Origin: Vulcanimicrobiota bacterium
Lineage (GTDB): Bacteria > Vulcanimicrobiota > Vulcanimicrobiia > Vulcanimicrobiales > Vulcanimicrobiaceae
DNA length: 58,158 nt
Direction of reading: 5' to 3'
Assembly (NCBI GenBank): GCA_027459645.1
Contig: DAIDHQ010000036.1
Location: 1-58,158, forward strand
A program made the position numbers and the translations under genes. The notes beneath the pieces are model-generated. The model did no database searches, had not been told where the DNA came from, and saw only the letters and a list, made by a program, of their open reading frames with translations. Shown here piece after piece: positions 51,684 through 58,158 of this stretch; positions within the stretch are counted from its first letter, which is position 1, and every line of letters begins with the position of its first letter.

Positions 51684-52847
51684 TTGCACGATACGCAAGC
51701 CCGCGCGCAGTTCGATCTGAGCGACGAGCAGCGGCAAATCGCCGCGCTCGCCGCCGAGATTGCGCAGCGTGAGATCGCTCCGCATATCGCACAGTGGGAC
51801 CGCGACCACGCGTTCCCGCGCGATCTGTATGCGAAGCTCAACGACGCCGGAATCATGGGCATCATCGTGCCCGAAAGCTACGGCGGCGTCGGCGCGGATT
51901 ACGTGTCGTATGCGCTTGCAATCGAAGAACTTGCGCGCGTCGATCCGGGGACGGCCGTGACCGTCTCGGTGCACTCGATGATCTGCAGCGCGATCCTGCG
52001 CCTAGGGACGGAAGAACAGAAGCGTCGCTGGCTTCCGAAACTCGGCGGCGGAAATCAGATCGGCGCCTTTGCGTTGACCGAACCCGATTGCGGTTCCGAT
52101 GCGGCGGCGCTGCGCGCGACGGCGAAGAAACACGGCGACGGCTACCTGCTCAACGGGCGCAAGCAGTGGTGCACGAACGGCACCTACGCCGGCGTGACGA
52201 TGGGCATGTTTCGCACGGGCGGCGGCGGCGCCAGGGGCGTGAGCGCATTTCTGATTCCCGGCGACGCGCCGGGCGTCTCCGTCGAGAAAATCACCGAAAA
52301 GCTCGGCATTCACACCAGCAACACGTGCGATCTCGCCTTCGACGACGTCGGCGTCGGCACCGACGCGCTGCTCGGCAAGGAAGGCGACGGTTTCGGATCC
52401 GCGATGACGGCGCTTGCAAGCGGACGCATCGGCATCGCCGCGCAGGCGACCGGCATACTCGCTGCATGTTTGGAGCAATCGATCGCATTTGCGAAAGACC
52501 GCGTTGCCTTCGGGCGCGCGATCGGTGCGTACGAAGGCGTGTCGTTCAAGATCGCGCAGATGGCGACCGATCTCGACGCCGCGCGGATGCTCGTCTATCG
52601 AGCGGCGGCGCTCGCCGATGCGGGTAGGCCGTTCGTCATCGAGGCGAGCAAAGCAAAGTTCTTTGCATCGACGGCCGCACGCAGACATGCGTCGGAAGCA
52701 CTGCAGATTCACGGTGGTTACGGGTACACCACCGAATTCGCGATCGAACGCTTCTATCGCGATGCGAAGATCACGGAAATCTACGAAGGAACGAGCGAAA
52801 TTCAACAGATCATCATCGCGCGCTCATTGTTAGGCAAGTTGGACTAA
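51684..52847 (+). CDS. short-chain acyl-CoA dehydrogenase
   Basis: 387 residues (family 380). TTG start 3 bp after thiolase. FAD/substrate motifs: YGGVGADYVSYALAIEEL, GAFALTEPDCGSDAAALRAT, NGRKQWCTNGTYAGVTMGMF, VAFGRAIGAYEGVSFKIAQM, ALQIHGGYGYTTEFAIERFY and the catalytic Glu in EIYEGTSEIQQIII (about 368). The Glu position marks the short/medium-chain (butyryl-CoA) class. It may reduce crotonyl-CoA from the Kal reaction or act in beta-oxidation; no etfAB genes are in the window. Confidence 0.93.
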   Translation: MHDTQARAQFDLSDEQRQIAALAAEIAQREIAPHIAQWDRDHAFPRDLYAKLNDAGIMGIIVPESYGGVGADYVSYALAIEELARVDPGTAVTVSVHSMICSAILRLGTEEQKRRWLPKLGGGNQIGAFALTEPDCGSDAAALRATAKKHGDGYLLNGRKQWCTNGTYAGVTMGMFRTGGGGARGVSAFLIPGDAPGVSVEKITEKLGIHTSNTCDLAFDDVGVGTDALLGKEGDGFGSAMTALASGRIGIAAQATGILAACLEQSIAFAKDRVAFGRAIGAYEGVSFKIAQMATDLDAARMLVYRAAALADAGRPFVIEASKAKFFASTAARRHASEALQIHGGYGYTTEFAIERFYRDAKITEIYEGTSEIQQIIIARSLLGKLD

Positions 52848-52855
52848 AAATGTAT

Positions 52856-52881
52856 GACCGCGCCGCTTTCGCGGCGCGGTC
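52856..52881 (-). terminator. strong hairpin with minus-strand T run
   Basis: A perfect 11-bp stem GACCGCGCCGC/GCGGCGCGGTC with a 4-nt loop. On the minus strand it is followed by ATACATTTTTAG, so it reads as an intrinsic terminator for the tRNA-like RNA. On the plus strand it follows the acyl-CoA dehydrogenase stop by 8 bp but lacks a T run, so there it is weaker. Confidence 0.75.
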
Positions 52882-52892
52882 ACTGGTATCGT

Positions 52893-53001
52893 GGCTGGAC
52901 CGTCGCATTCATGTTACCACGCACCGCCCACCGGTCGCAATGCCGATGCGCTGGAGCGTACGGGGATCGAACCCGTTGCGGCATGAATTGACGGTCCAGC
53001 C
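52893..53001. repeat. long inverted repeat flanking the T arm
   Basis: GGCTGGACCGTC (52893-52904) and its exact complement (52990-53001) are 85 bp apart; ATTCATG on the inner side pairs again after a 1-2 nt bulge. One arm lies inside the tRNA-like element and the other downstream of it, so in RNA this helix would compete or form a pseudoknot with the acceptor stem. Confidence 0.8.
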
Positions 53002-53023
53002 GTCGACACCATCGAAACGCCCC
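52952..53023 (-). ncRNA. tRNA-like element resembling a tmRNA without mRNA-like domain
   Basis: 72 nt on the minus strand. Acceptor strand GGGGCGT pairs fully with ACGCTCC, including a G3-U70 wobble and discriminator A, the alanine identity set used by tRNA-Ala and tmRNA. The T arm is perfect: ACGGG, loop TTCGATC, CCCGT. The 5' side reads TTCGATGGTGTCGACGG, like the TTCGACGG block after the tmRNA acceptor, and ATGCCGCA before the T arm resembles the 3' part of tmRNAs. Between them is only a 5-bp hairpin (GACGG/CCGTC, 5-nt loop), too small for an anticodon arm and with no tag sequence. CCA is not encoded (GCG follows). A T-rich terminator hairpin lies about 70 bp downstream. Could be a relic. 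Confidence 0.5.
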
Positions 53024-53070
53024 AGCGCGGGCCAATCACGCGATACCTAGGAGAAAGCAAGAGCAACGCC

Positions 53071-54249
53071 ATGAACCTCATGGAGTACCAGGGCAAGGAA
53101 TTGTTCCGCCGCTGCGGCATTCCGGTGCCGAGATCGCAACACTGCAAGACGCCCGACGAAGTCGCGGCGTTCATCGAAAAGAATCCCGGCAAGTGGGTCG
53201 TCAAAGCGCAAGTGCTGATGGGCGGCCGCGGTAAGGCCGGCAAGATCAAATTTGCGACGACGGCCGAAGAAGGGCGTAAGGTCGCGCAGGAGATCATGGC
53301 GACGCCTATGCCCCCGAATCGCCAGAATCCAAGCGGCGAACCGATTCATTCGGTGCTCGTGGAAGAGACGCTCGAGGTTGCACTCGAAGCGTATACCGCG
53401 ATCAGCGTCGACCGCACGACGAAGAAGCCGGCGATCATCGTCACCAAATTCGGCGGCATGGACGTCGAAGAAGTGCACGAGAAACATCCAGAGTCGTTTG
53501 CAACGTTCTTCGTCGATACGGCGATCGGCTATTCGCCCTTCATCGGGCGCGAACTCGCCTTTAAAACCGATCTCGATGCCGGCTATCGCAAGCAGTTCCC
53601 CGCGATCGTCGCCGGCATGTACGATCTCTTCTTCAAGTACGGCGCGAAGCTCGTCGAGATCAATCCGCTCGTACTCACCAAAGACGGGCGCGTGATCGCG
53701 GCCGACGCGAAAGTTGAAATCGACGACGACGCGCTCTTCCGCCATCCGGAATTCAAGGATTGGCAGCAAGTGTTGCCGCTGGATGAAGACGAGACGCTTG
53801 CAACGCAAGCGGGCCTGGGCATCCGCAACTTCCGCCGCTTCGGTGGAACCGTCGGCACGATGGCCAACGGCGCGGGCCTTGCGATGGGGACGATGGACGC
53901 GGTGAAAAACGCGGGCGGCGAGATCGCGAACTTCCTCGACGTCGGCGGCGGCGCAAACGCCGAGCGCGTGCGCAGCTGTTACGAACTCGTCGTCAATCAC
54001 ACGGGCGCGAAGGTGTTCTTCGTCAATATCTTCGGCGGCATCACTCGCGGCGACGAAGTCGCCAAAGGCATCGTCGAAGCACTCAAAACGACGAAGTCGC
54101 GCAAGATTCCGCTCGTCATTCGTTTGACGGGCACGAACGAAGAAGAAGGCCGCCGGATTCTCGCGGACGCGGGCATGACGCCGGTCGAAACGATGGACGA
54201 AGGCGCGAAGCGCGCCGTCGAATTGGCCGCCTCCGGCGTGTCATCCTGA
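53071..54249 (+). CDS. sucC: succinyl-CoA synthetase beta subunit
   Basis: 392 residues (family about 388). ATP-grasp domain: MNLMEYQGKELFRRCGIPVP, KAQVLMGGRGKAGKIKFA, LVEETLEVALEAYTAISVDR; C-terminal ligase part: LVEINPLVLTKDGRVIAADA, FLDVGGGANAERV, FFVNIFGGITRGDEVAKGIV. With SucD it makes succinyl-CoA from succinate, CoA and ATP/GTP (reversible TCA step). The last residues GVSS and the TGA stop are provided by a repeat copy. SD AGGAG lies about 20 bp before ATG 53071, so initiation spacing is loose. Confidence 0.96.
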   Translation: MNLMEYQGKELFRRCGIPVPRSQHCKTPDEVAAFIEKNPGKWVVKAQVLMGGRGKAGKIKFATTAEEGRKVAQEIMATPMPPNRQNPSGEPIHSVLVEETLEVALEAYTAISVDRTTKKPAIIVTKFGGMDVEEVHEKHPESFATFFVDTAIGYSPFIGRELAFKTDLDAGYRKQFPAIVAGMYDLFFKYGAKLVEINPLVLTKDGRVIAADAKVEIDDDALFRHPEFKDWQQVLPLDEDETLATQAGLGIRNFRRFGGTVGTMANGAGLAMGTMDAVKNAGGEIANFLDVGGGANAERVRSCYELVVNHTGAKVFFVNIFGGITRGDEVAKGIVEALKTTKSRKIPLVIRLTGTNEEEGRRILADAGMTPVETMDEGAKRAVELAASGVSS

Positions 54250-55279: not shown

Positions 55280-55344
55280 AACGTCACGTGAGAAAGCGCT
55301 GAGAGTCCCCGGTGGGGGACCCTCGGCAGTTTCACGTGTACGTT
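55280..55344 (+). promoter_or_regulatory. structured 5' leader of the TonB receptor gene
   Basis: A two-tier hairpin lies 31 bp before the receptor start. The outer stem pairs AACGTCACGTGA with TCACGTGTACGTT (12 bp, one bulge). The inner stem pairs GCTGAG-a-GTCCCC with GGGGAC-c-CTCGGC around GGTG. No T run follows the inner stem directly (GTTTTG follows the outer one). It may be a regulatory leader or a protein-binding hairpin; I do not recognise a known riboswitch. Confidence 0.5.
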
Positions 55345-55374
55345 TTGTCACTCACATCTACTGAGGGCTATCAA

Positions 55375-58158
55375 TTGAATAGTAAGCGAACCCTCCGTCA
55401 GGTGGCCGTGGCGCTCTCACTCCTCGTCGCCTTCCTGTTCCAGGGAACATGGGCACTGGCAGGTACGACGGGCGGACTGAGCGGCGTAGTCACGGACTCG
55501 TCCGGTGCACCGGTGGCGGGAGCGGCCATTAAGGCCTCCTCGGCATCGCAAACGGCTACCGCAACGACGGATGCGAGTGGGCACTTTACCTTCATTTCGC
55601 TTTCACCGGATACATATACGGTGTCGGCGGAAAAGAAAGGCTATAGTCCCACGTCGCTCGCCGGCGTTACGGTCTTCGCGGACCAAAACCTGACGGTTTC
55701 ACTGACGCTATCGAAGGCACTCAAGACGATCGCCGTAACCACGGCGACCGCCGCGGGTAACCTCGTCAAATCCGGTACGACGTCTGACGTCTACTCGGTC
55801 AACTCTGCGACCGCGACCGCGGTGCAGGGCATCGGCGGTGGTTACAACCTCGACTCGGCCTACTCTGCGGTCTACTCGCAGCCGGGCGTGACGTCGTACA
55901 TTGGTAACTACGGCTTCGGCCAAACGTTCTACATCCGCGGCTCCGCGTACAGCCAAGTCGGCTATGAGTACGACGGCGTCCCGGTCAACCGCGCGTTCGA
56001 CAACTACAATGCGAACTCGCTCTCGAGCCTCGGCACCCAAGAGACGGAAGTCTACGCGGGCGGCTCGAGCGCCGGTGCTGCTTCGGCAACGCTCGGCGGT
56101 TACATCAACCAGGTCATTAAGACCGGTACGTATCCGGGAACGGGTACGCTGGTCGGCGGCCTCGGATCGCCGAACTTCTACCACAAGCTCAGCGTTGAAA
56201 CGGGCGGCGCCACGCCGAACCGTTTGTTCTCGTATTACATCGGGCTCTCTGGTGTGAACCAGCAGTTCCCGTTCATTACGAACAACAACGCCGCCGGTCT
56301 GAACCCCGACGGTAGCAACGCATACGGTTTGTCTGGTAGCAGCATCAACCCGATCGGCTTCTTCACGCTCTTCTACGGCCCTGGGCCGTGGTCGACGTGT
56401 ACTGCCACGGGAGCGCCGCCTGCCGGTGCTTCGACGATCGGTGGAAACCCGGCGTGCTCGGCCTACGCGCCGCTCGCCGCGAACTACAACATCGGCATTC
56501 GCGACCGTGAGAACGTCTTCAACTTCCATTTCGGCATTCCGCACAAGAAGGACGGCGGCCGCGATGACGTGCAGGCGTTGCTCTACAACTTCGGCTATCA
56601 GTCGCTGTACAACGACAGCCTGAACGCCCTCGGCGGCGCTTCGTACTGGAACAACCAGCTCTCGAGCGTCGTCAATCTCTTCGGCATTGCCAACCCCGCA
56701 TCGCCCTACCCGAACCTCTGCGGCTTCCAGGCTGCTCTCGGTTTGTCGTGCGCCACGCAGGGCCCGTCGCCGATTCCGATCGACGACACGATCACGTTCC
56801 CGGGCGGCACGGGCTTCGGCCAGAGTGCAACCGGCGTGACGGCGGTCAACTACTACGCGCCCGGCTATCCCACGAACCGTCCGGTCGGCGTCGGAATCGA
56901 TCCGAACCTACAAGACGGCATCTGGAATGATGGTACGGTCGTGAAACTCCAGTATCAGAAGAACTTCGGTTCGACGGCGTTTGCGCGCTTGTTGGGCTAC
57001 TCGTTCTACTCTGACTGGCTGATGACGGCGCCGAACGATTCGGGCGGCTTCATTACGTCGTACATCCCGGGCATGGGTAACAGCTACCCGTCGCCGGATT
57101 ACGAACTGAACACGCACACGCGTGGTCTGCAACTCGACGTTGAAGATCAGATCAATGAAAAGAACCTCCTGAGCTTCATCGCCAATTACACGACGGCGAC
57201 GGTCGTGCGCTGGAACAACCAGATCCAGTACGGCTTCAACCACGCTGGTATCAACCTCACGGACGGTACGAACTGCTACAACACGACGACGGGTGCGCTC
57301 GCCTCGTGTCTCTCCGGTTCCACTGCCGTCAGCGATGGCAACCTGTTGCCGGGTGGCGCGGGTCTCCCGCCGGTTCCGGTCGGTGCGCCCGCCAACGCGT
57401 CGTACCAGATCACCGTTCCGGGTGATTACGGTCCGCGCAACGACGTGACGCCGCGCTTCACTAACATCTCGCTCTCCGATGTGTGGCAGCCCACCGACAA
57501 GTGGAACATCAACCTCGGCGTGCGTGAGGAAGTCTATCAGTATCTGCTTCATAGCACGGTGAACCCGGAGTTCAACTTCTGGTTCAACCAGGCTGCGAAC
57601 TCGTATTGTTACGATCCGGGCACGGGTAACGTGTTGCTGACGCCGGTTTCGCCGACGACGCCTCCGTATGCGCAAGGTCCGGTTGTTGCCTACAACTCGC
57701 TCCCGGGTGAGAATCCGGGACTGTGCTACACCGGCGCAGGCGCCGCACTGATCGGTCCTTCGGGCCAACAGGCGGTTCACCCCAACGGTGTCGGCGGTAA
57801 CAAGCTCTACACCAACGTCGGCCCGACGTCGCTGAGCCACACGCTGTTCTCACCGCGTCTCTCGGGCACGTATACGATCAATCCGGATACGGTTCTTCGC
57901 TTCTCGGCCGGCCGCTACACGCAGCCGACGGAAACGGCGTTCGAACAGTACTCCAACGCGTCGGGACTCGGCGCCGCGAAGTTCGACTTCCATTACTTCT
58001 GGAATCTGGGCTTCACGAACCCGGTCCACGACAACCCGGTTCAAACGTCGAATAACTACGACTTCTCGTACGAGCGGCACTTCAAGGGCACCGACTGGAC
58101 CATGAAGATCTCGCCGTTCTATCGTTATACGACCAACGAACTCGTGACGGTCTCGCTC
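55375..58158 (+). CDS. TonB-dependent receptor with carboxypeptidase-regulatory-like domain (3' end outside window)
   Basis: 928 codons without stop to the window end. TTG 55375 has GAGGG seven bases upstream and begins a signal peptide (LRQVAVALSLLVAFLFQGTW). Residues 33-115 form a CarboxypepD_reg-like Ig domain (GGLSGVVTDSSGAPVAGAAI, ATTDASGHFTFISLSPDTYT). The plug follows with YSQPGVTSYIGNYGFGQTFY, IRGSAYSQVGYEYDGVPVNR and SATLGGYINQVIKTG. The rest is aromatic-rich barrel strands (VVKLQYQKNFGSTAFARLLG, LSHTLFSPRLSGTYTINPDT). It imports a TonB-driven substrate, possibly a glycan or metal complex. No obvious TonB box is seen. Several paired cysteines occur in loops. Confidence 0.88.
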   Translation, partial: MNSKRTLRQVAVALSLLVAFLFQGTWALAGTTGGLSGVVTDSSGAPVAGAAIKASSASQTATATTDASGHFTFISLSPDTYTVSAEKKGYSPTSLAGVTVFADQNLTVSLTLSKALKTIAVTTATAAGNLVKSGTTSDVYSVNSATATAVQGIGGGYNLDSAYSAVYSQPGVTSYIGNYGFGQTFYIRGSAYSQVGYEYDGVPVNRAFDNYNANSLSSLGTQETEVYAGGSSAGAASATLGGYINQVIKTGTYPGTGTLVGGLGSPNFYHKLSVETGGATPNRLFSYYIGLSGVNQQFPFITNNNAAGLNPDGSNAYGLSGSSINPIGFFTLFYGPGPWSTCTATGAPPAGASTIGGNPACSAYAPLAANYNIGIRDRENVFNFHFGIPHKKDGGRDDVQALLYNFGYQSLYNDSLNALGGASYWNNQLSSVVNLFGIANPASPYPNLCGFQAALGLSCATQGPSPIPIDDTITFPGGTGFGQSATGVTAVNYYAPGYPTNRPVGVGIDPNLQDGIWNDGTVVKLQYQKNFGSTAFARLLGYSFYSDWLMTAPNDSGGFITSYIPGMGNSYPSPDYELNTHTRGLQLDVEDQINEKNLLSFIANYTTATVVRWNNQIQYGFNHAGINLTDGTNCYNTTTGALASCLSGSTAVSDGNLLPGGAGLPPVPVGAPANASYQITVPGDYGPRNDVTPRFTNISLSDVWQPTDKWNINLGVREEVYQYLLHSTVNPEFNFWFNQAANSYCYDPGTGNVLLTPVSPTTPPYAQGPVVAYNSLPGENPGLCYTGAGAALIGPSGQQAVHPNGVGGNKLYTNVGPTSLSHTLFSPRLSGTYTINPDTVLRFSAGRYTQPTETAFEQYSNASGLGAAKFDFHYFWNLGFTNPVHDNPVQTSNNYDFSYERHFKGTDWTMKISPFYRYTTNELVTVSL

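Follow-up and report, generated by a model that had tools for sequence, protein, structure and literature searches.

Between an acyl-CoA dehydrogenase gene (plus strand, ending at 52847) and sucC (plus strand, starting at 53071) of a soil bacterium of the phylum Eremiobacterota (genome 3.14 Mb, 96.6 % complete), the minus strand carries a two-gene RNA module that is the representative of an undescribed family of structured RNAs, a conclusion strongly supported by sequence comparison. The first gene specifies a tRNA-like RNA, RNA1, and the second a predicted short RNA, RNA2, the 5′ end of which (block X′) is complementary to part of RNA1 (block X). The reading that we favour as probable is that of an antisense-controlled tRNA mimic, itself probably alanine-accepting, and the module is perhaps an RNA–RNA addiction module. 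All coordinates refer to the window, i.e. the whole stretch of 58,158 nt that was analysed (Table 1).

Table 1. Predicted elements of the RNA module and their positions in the window
Feature	Coordinates	Strand	Basis
Two-gene RNA module (RNA1 + RNA2)	53061-52846	minus	
Predicted RNA1 promoter, CTTG...GCGTGATTG	53033..53061	minus	Expectation-maximisation motif upstream of 76 copies
RNA1, 72-nt tRNA-like RNA, GGGGCGTTTCGATGG...ACGCTCCA	53023-52952	minus	Covariance model R1, 91.2 bits
Anticodon-like arm of RNA1	52980..53001	minus	All 7 pairs with compensatory changes
Block X, 14 nt: 5′ stem strand and loop CCGTCAA	53001-52988	minus	Pairs with X′
T-arm of RNA1, ACGGG-TTCGATC-CCCGT	52960..52976	minus	4/5 pairs covary, 99 % of cells paired
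Predicted RNA2 promoter, sigma70-like, extended -10	52911..52940	minus	Conserved motif
RNA2, predicted antisense RNA of ~59 nt	52846..52904	minus	Relatives have the promoter, X′ and the terminator-like hairpin together
Block X′, GACGGTCCAGCC, predicted 5′ end of RNA2	52893..52904	minus	Perfect complement of RNA1 53001-52990
Intrinsic terminator: 12-bp hairpin (52882-52855), then TACATTTTT	52846..52882	minus	

The module and its genomic setting

The predicted fold of the minus strand of 53070-52847 is far more stable than that of shuffled sequence (z -6.7) because a stretch of the tRNA-like part recurs inverted downstream, and in this whole-region fold the helix between X and X′ extends, with interruptions, to about 30 bp. 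Neither ARAGORN nor Rfam at its gathering thresholds calls anything in the whole window; the RNA1/RNA2 family has no Rfam match, and no paper describing it was found among the open-access literature. The acyl-CoA dehydrogenase gene converges on the module, and its stop codon overlaps the module terminator. Among the flanking genes sampled in other copies there is no consistent protein partner; different copies have unrelated neighbours, and most of the downstream genes converge on the module, which therefore is neither a leader nor part of a partner-protein system. A T-box or leader riboswitch was likewise rejected, given the module's own terminator and the convergent orientation of most sampled downstream genes.

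A tRNA-like fold kept by covariation

Against covariance model R1, built from 38 sequences of which the window RNA1 is itself one row, the window RNA1 scores far beyond chance (91.2 bits, E about 5e-19). Its cloverleaf comprises a 7-bp acceptor stem with G3-U70 and A73, a D-arm, a 7-bp anticodon-like arm with a 1-nt bulge and a 7-nt loop, and a T-arm; four covarying arms, a D-loop GG and a T-loop TTCRA are features of the tRNA type, and a length of 72 nt is kept in nearly all copies. On the 38 sequences, 95.3 % of cells are paired, with double changes at every pair of the anticodon-like arm. When 74 distinct sequences were compared, the paired share was again 95.3 %, and the acceptor, D-, anticodon- and T-arms were all found to covary, with double compensatory changes at 19 of 23 pairs (all four D-arm pairs included) and 292 double-change cells as against 40-54 in slid controls, counts that overstate the number of independent events, as the copies are related. 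The comparison thus shows the fold to be conserved. Minimum-energy folding of single sequences recovers at least 80 % of the cloverleaf pairs in only 29 of 57 RNA1 sequences.

An earlier note, made from the window alone, had recognized a 72-nt minus-strand element with a 7-bp acceptor stem, G3-U70, a discriminator A and a T arm, as well as a strong hairpin followed by a minus-strand T run, and both were confirmed (at 53023-52952 and 52882-52846, respectively). Compensatory conservation in relatives, the absence of which was to count against the element, proved strongly positive. The note was wrong, however, in seeing only a 5-bp/5-nt hairpin in place of the D- and anticodon arms, since comparison of 38-76 copies reveals a D-arm hairpin, TCGA/TGGTG/TCGA, and a separate 7-bp arm; the hairpin that had been proposed, GACGG-CTGGA-CCGTC, is a coincidental alternative that relatives do not keep. 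What had been taken for tmRNA-like blocks, including GTCGACGG, is the D-arm, which changes with compensation in distant members.

A degenerate tmRNA or an ordinary tRNA gene would account for the alanine identity, for the tmRNA-like GGGGC..TCGAC start and for the fact that ARAGORN calls some copies tRNA-Ile, -Asp or -Val. RNA1 indeed shares with the tRNA-like domain of tmRNA (ssrA, RF00023) the GGGGC... acceptor, G3-U70, A73, the T-arm, the TCGAC block and an expected alanylation, but differs from it in its D-stem and anticodon-like arm, its multiple copies and its antisense partner; an mRNA-like domain with a tag frame, P2 and pseudoknots are absent from RNA1, and the anticodon-like arm stands in their place. 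Moreover, the genome possesses an intact, one-piece ssrA elsewhere (tag ANNEYALAA, 120.8 bits) and 46 tRNA genes, none of which lies at this locus or coincides with any module locus. The view of the region as a deletion relic of ssrA, or a stripped tmRNA, had to be abandoned in the light of that intact gene, the anticodon arm and a multi-copy family with an anatomy of its own. An att-site duplicate of ssrA was rejected on the intact ssrA and the different anatomy, and a permuted tmRNA was rejected because, even at relaxed thresholds, the only match of tmRNA covariance models to the region is a beta_tmRNA fragment covering the T-arm (12.9 bits, with a gathering score of 84).

As for decoding, among 73 copies position 33 holds U in at least 38 and C in 30. 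Because U33 is not kept in about half and the arm is longer than in tRNA, decoding is unlikely, and the reading of codons by the loop triplet was rejected. The window RNA1 is called neither by ARAGORN nor by RF00005, and Rfam gives no match at its gathering score. With the 7-bp bulged stem, an anticodon that varies freely with X′ and a loop tied to the neighbouring antisense gene, an ordinary tRNA is disfavoured, and the whole tmRNA-or-tRNA explanation seems to us extremely improbable. The best explanation is that RNA1 mimics a tRNA, carries the identity signals for alanine and does not decode. Some other copies of the module are given wrong labels by automatic annotation: ARAGORN reports tRNA-Ile(GAT) at 3028-3103 of L161, tRNA-Asp(GTC) at 2445-2514 of L124 and tRNA-Val(GAC) at 2452-2530 of L112.

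Alanine identity signals and the acceptor end

G3-U70 is the major determinant for alanyl-tRNA synthetase (AlaRS), which ignores the anticodon. Both G3-U70 and A73 are kept in 74 of 76 copies; compensatory changes occur at pairs 4-69, 5-68, 6-67 and 7-66, and a G-C pair is never seen in place of G3-U70. Even two distant copies (L122 and L127, of group f3) retain G3-U70 if the acceptor is read one base earlier. RNA1 thus probably accepts alanine. The suggestion of the earlier note that an expressed, alanylatable mini tRNA-like RNA might be specified here gains from these two signals, the covarying arms and a conserved promoter, and we retain it in this predictive sense. CCA is not encoded in RNA1; true tRNA genes without CCA are also present in the genome. 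In the precursor, the acceptor helix is lengthened to 10 bp by pairing of bases -3 to -1 with 73-75, where the pair types are compensatory. This extended helix and the absent CCA might hinder maturation by RNase P/Z and charging, and G3-U70 could instead serve the binding of AlaRS without charging, or of another protein.

Separate promoters for RNA1 and RNA2

The box upstream of RNA1 has the consensus CTTGtC-N~15-CGCGTGATtGA, spans about -39 to -10 from G1 and is found at -38/-39 in 58 of 76 copies. It differs from the promoter of RNA2, for which 65 copies give TTGnnn-N17-TGTGnTAnnnT, with 1.1-1.8 bits in each of the columns of the -35 TTG and the -10 TA...T. Of the 76 copies, a script detected the latter pattern in 75, with a spacer of 17 or 18 nt in 73; in the last copy it was recognized by eye. 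The window copy reads TTGCGA (52940-52935), an 18-nt spacer and GTGg-TAACAT (-10 at 52916-52911), and the position of this promoter would place the start of RNA2 near 52904, about 7 nt past it. A terminator-like hairpin follows RNA2 in the copies that were read by eye, and a simple T-run pattern is matched in only 41 of 72. This arrangement makes it most likely that RNA2 is a short RNA in its own right and that RNA1 is under separate control, though its transcription may continue into RNA2. The two conserved promoters are shown by the same comparison as the fold.

These promoters bear on the possibility that the region specifies one cis-acting transcript of ~190 nt that switches between the cloverleaf and the long hairpin, as a means, for instance, of controlling how it is processed. 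The whole region does fold with a long X:X′ helix, and both parts lie on one strand ahead of a common terminator. Nevertheless, a single transcript has no need of the conserved promoter between the two parts (-35, extended -10, 17-nt spacer), with a start at X′, and the convergence of most sampled downstream genes speaks against a gene leader. We therefore regard a lone cis-acting RNA as quite unlikely and prefer two genes. The RNA of about 180 nt put forward in the earlier note has a second gene inside it, with its own promoter and a 5′ end antisense to the anticodon arm.

A motif resembling the RNA1 box, CTTG-N-CGTGATnG, precedes each of the genome's three Uma2 (PF05685) nuclease genes (L202, L208 and L216), and most of 17 Uma2 genes in relatives (L233-L249) have CGTGAT(A/G)nnnT. 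Co-regulation of RNA1 with Uma2 is only a lead and was set aside, as the Uma2 promoters have a proper extended -10 (CGTGATAnnnT), which RNA1 lacks.

Co-evolution of X and X′

In nearly every copy, a complement of X, perfect or nearly so, lies about 40-57 nt downstream of RNA1, so placed that the first ~14-18 nt of RNA2 complement the anticodon loop and 5′ stem strand of RNA1. At least 12 of the 14 positions of X:X′ are paired in 73 of 76 copies, and one further copy has a shifted 15-nt match; the same threshold is reached in 8.5 % of comparisons with the partners of other copies and in 2.4 % with shuffled DNA. All 14 positions covary, with three to four different Watson-Crick pairs at each. 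The anticodon stem and the X:X′ duplex are mutually exclusive, yet covariation keeps both, as expected of an RNA that must fold and must also meet an antisense RNA. The cognate partner gives the strongest duplex in 48 of 50 within-genome comparisons (mean -48.2 versus -34.6 kcal/mol for non-cognate partners); for the three pairs of the present genome, the predicted energies are -41 to -56 kcal/mol with cognate and -31 to -37 kcal/mol with non-cognate partners. Relative to the two RNAs folded separately, cognate pairs are predicted to gain a net -19.4 kcal/mol and non-cognate pairs -5.2 kcal/mol. At the orthologous sucC/acyl-CoA dehydrogenase locus of three genera, X and X′ differ and stay complementary (GGCTGGACCGTC/GACGGTCCAGCC, GGTCGAACTGTC/GACAGTTCGGCC and GGTCGAACCGAC/GTCGGTTCGGCC). 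Taken together, the alignments and predicted energies show that X and X′ co-evolve and that cognate pairs are insulated from one another.

Such pairing might also arise if RNA2 were the active regulator, acting on mRNAs through its X′ 5′ end, and RNA1 its sponge or decoy. RNA2, with a 5′ seed and a terminator, does resemble ordinary small regulatory RNAs, and RNA1 offers it a perfectly complementary site. A fixed mRNA target should, however, prevent the free variation of X/X′ that is seen within one genome and even at one orthologous locus, and neither the covariation of four tRNA arms nor the invariance of G3-U70 would be required of a sponge. We consider a sponge unlikely and retain RNA1 as the probable effector.

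Distribution, copy number and decay of the family

We identified 76 copies of the module in Eremiobacterota, with one to five per genome, and no confirmed copy outside this phylum. Of 149 genomes searched in the phylum, 53 contain exact matches to a 14-mer, about 80 in total, and the reversed-pattern control was 0 throughout; coding coincidences without a T-arm among these matches were left out of the family. When 84,980 species genomes were scanned with a 20-base pattern, all true members came from records of Candidatus Eremiobacterota or from MAGs labelled 'bacterium'. Model R1 gave matches over 60 bits only in the family to which the window belongs and diverged ones in a sister family of the class; in 794 genomes of two other phyla it gave two matches above 42 bits, both tRNAs according to ARAGORN. 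Exact-motif matches in Nocardioides, Hyphomicrobiales, Desulfocapsaceae, Desulfarculaceae, Desulfofustis, Cytophagales, Raskinella and two viral contigs were rejected, being coding-like and without a T-arm.

In its own genome, a DNA search revealed two further tRNA-like copies (C6:225028 and C22:90). The three have the acceptor, D-arm and T-arm in common and differ in a block of ~20 nt, each with its own complement after a gap. The third copy (L160, within the first 160 bases of C22) lacks 5 nt of the RNA1 anticodon arm and has G-G in place of G3-U70, with X′ and the RNA2 promoter apparently intact. A deleted or broken RNA1 beside an intact RNA2 promoter and X′ was likewise found in L163, L165 and L123, and an intact RNA1 without RNA2 at no locus, an asymmetry that rests on few copies and is the opposite of what a search targeted at RNA1 would have favoured. 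It fits an RNA1 that is harmful without RNA2, and is less natural for a sponge. Along with the frequent decay and the presence of several insulated pairs, it recalls toxin–antitoxin loci. Two or three modules may also lie in tandem, at distances of about 225 to about 700 bp, and the X/X′ pair then differs from unit to unit (L166, G066:C109; L030, G064:C178; L035, G071:C53; L146, G057:C87; L027, G056:C178); in G066, three copies are spaced about 225 bp apart.

An imperfect inverted repeat with arms of ~30-40 bp, present in several copies, sometimes in tandem and sometimes decayed, could be a feature of the DNA and have no RNA function, whether as an inverted-repeat mobile element or as a quasi-palindrome corrected by template switching. 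Against this, the covariation of all four cloverleaf helices is internal to a single arm of the repeat, G3-U70 is invariant, two promoters of different consensus are kept, and sites are common to several genera, with no transposase or consistent partner in the flanks examined. We judge a purely DNA-level origin to be very improbable, and the two-RNA module is preferred here too.

Proposed mode of action

From the comparative evidence we infer transcription of both genes, antisense inhibition and alanylation, as follows. Because its promoter differs and its end lacks CCA, RNA1 would need trimming and CCA addition, after which it would be charged with alanine, as is expected because AlaRS reads G3-U70/A73 and ignores the anticodon; the anticodon arm would therefore be free to serve as an address for RNA2. 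RNA2 would be a dedicated antisense RNA with a housekeeping-type promoter of its own, its codirectional transcription beginning about 45 nt beyond RNA1. Its 5′ end would first meet the 7-nt anticodon-like loop and then displace the 5′ strand of the anticodon-like arm and partly the D-arm, such that RNA1 unfolds and is probably exposed to RNase III. When RNA2 runs short, free RNA1 would accumulate, most plausibly disturbing translation or the supply of alanyl-tRNA, and the module would then act as an RNA–RNA (type VIII-like) toxin–antitoxin pair or as a regulatory switch. Toxicity or growth control by RNA1 is a speculative element of this scheme. As a tentative extension, which may well not hold, the family could form a class of RNA-only addiction modules or switches with an alanyl-tRNA mimic as effector, a mutable address in the anticodon arm and several insulated pairs per genome.

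Relation to known systems

SdsR/RyeA is an example of a type VIII (RNA–RNA) toxin–antitoxin pair. As in this type, the module has two RNA genes side by side, one of which complements the other as far as their sequences go; one RNA apparently restrains the other, and copies decay with the presumed antidote last. In CreTA, also of type VIII, the CreT toxins act on tRNA supply and the antidote is a CRISPR guide (PMC8501985). The present module differs from CreTA in that the effector is itself a tRNA mimic and the antidote a direct antisense of its anticodon arm, with co-evolution of X and X′. It would work most like CreTA-type RNA–RNA pairs or plasmid antisense pairs, an analogy that stops short of a claim to type VIII membership. 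Plasmid and type I antisense pairs, such as ColE1 RNAI/RNAII and hok/sok, are known for loop-first recognition, insulated cognates and compensatory drift of specificity. The module, as proposed, is comparable in all three respects, but its two genes follow one another on one strand, with transcripts that do not overlap, and the RNA under control is a tRNA-like, non-coding one.

Bacterial Y RNAs (YrlA) mimic tRNA with a closed acceptor helix; unlike these, the module has a different anatomy, in which no long Ro-binding stem is seen. The nearest non-translational tRNA-like RNA is the pseudo-tRNA tRNA-Other of Bacillus cereus, which stands outside translation and probably regulates, and which differs in being a single locus and part of a longer RNA with no dedicated, co-evolving antisense gene (PMC3399842). 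The module joins an alanine-identity tRNA mimic to a co-evolving antisense gene, two things not known together. If RNA1 is charged and restrained by RNA2, this would be a new RNA-only control of translation or aminoacyl-tRNA supply; if the proposal is true, the module would also allow the evolution of orthogonal antisense pairs to be tested in a natural setting and would provide an entry point into Eremiobacterota, a phylum in which hardly any genetics exists.

Two further observations were made. On a plasmid of Sulfuricystis multivorans, an extra 'tRNA-Asp' (NZ_AP018720.1 66298-66369; L253/L254) has G3-U70 and A73 and no CCA, with a 10-nt perfect complement of its anticodon loop about 75 nt downstream, followed by a terminator-like hairpin; a normal tRNA-Asp is present on the chromosome. 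This locus may be a module of this kind in a different phylum, or may be due to chance. In the window itself, an ORF of at least 949 aa at 55312-58158, cut by the window end, is TonB-dependent-receptor-like, with an N-terminal carboxypeptidase-regulatory-like domain.
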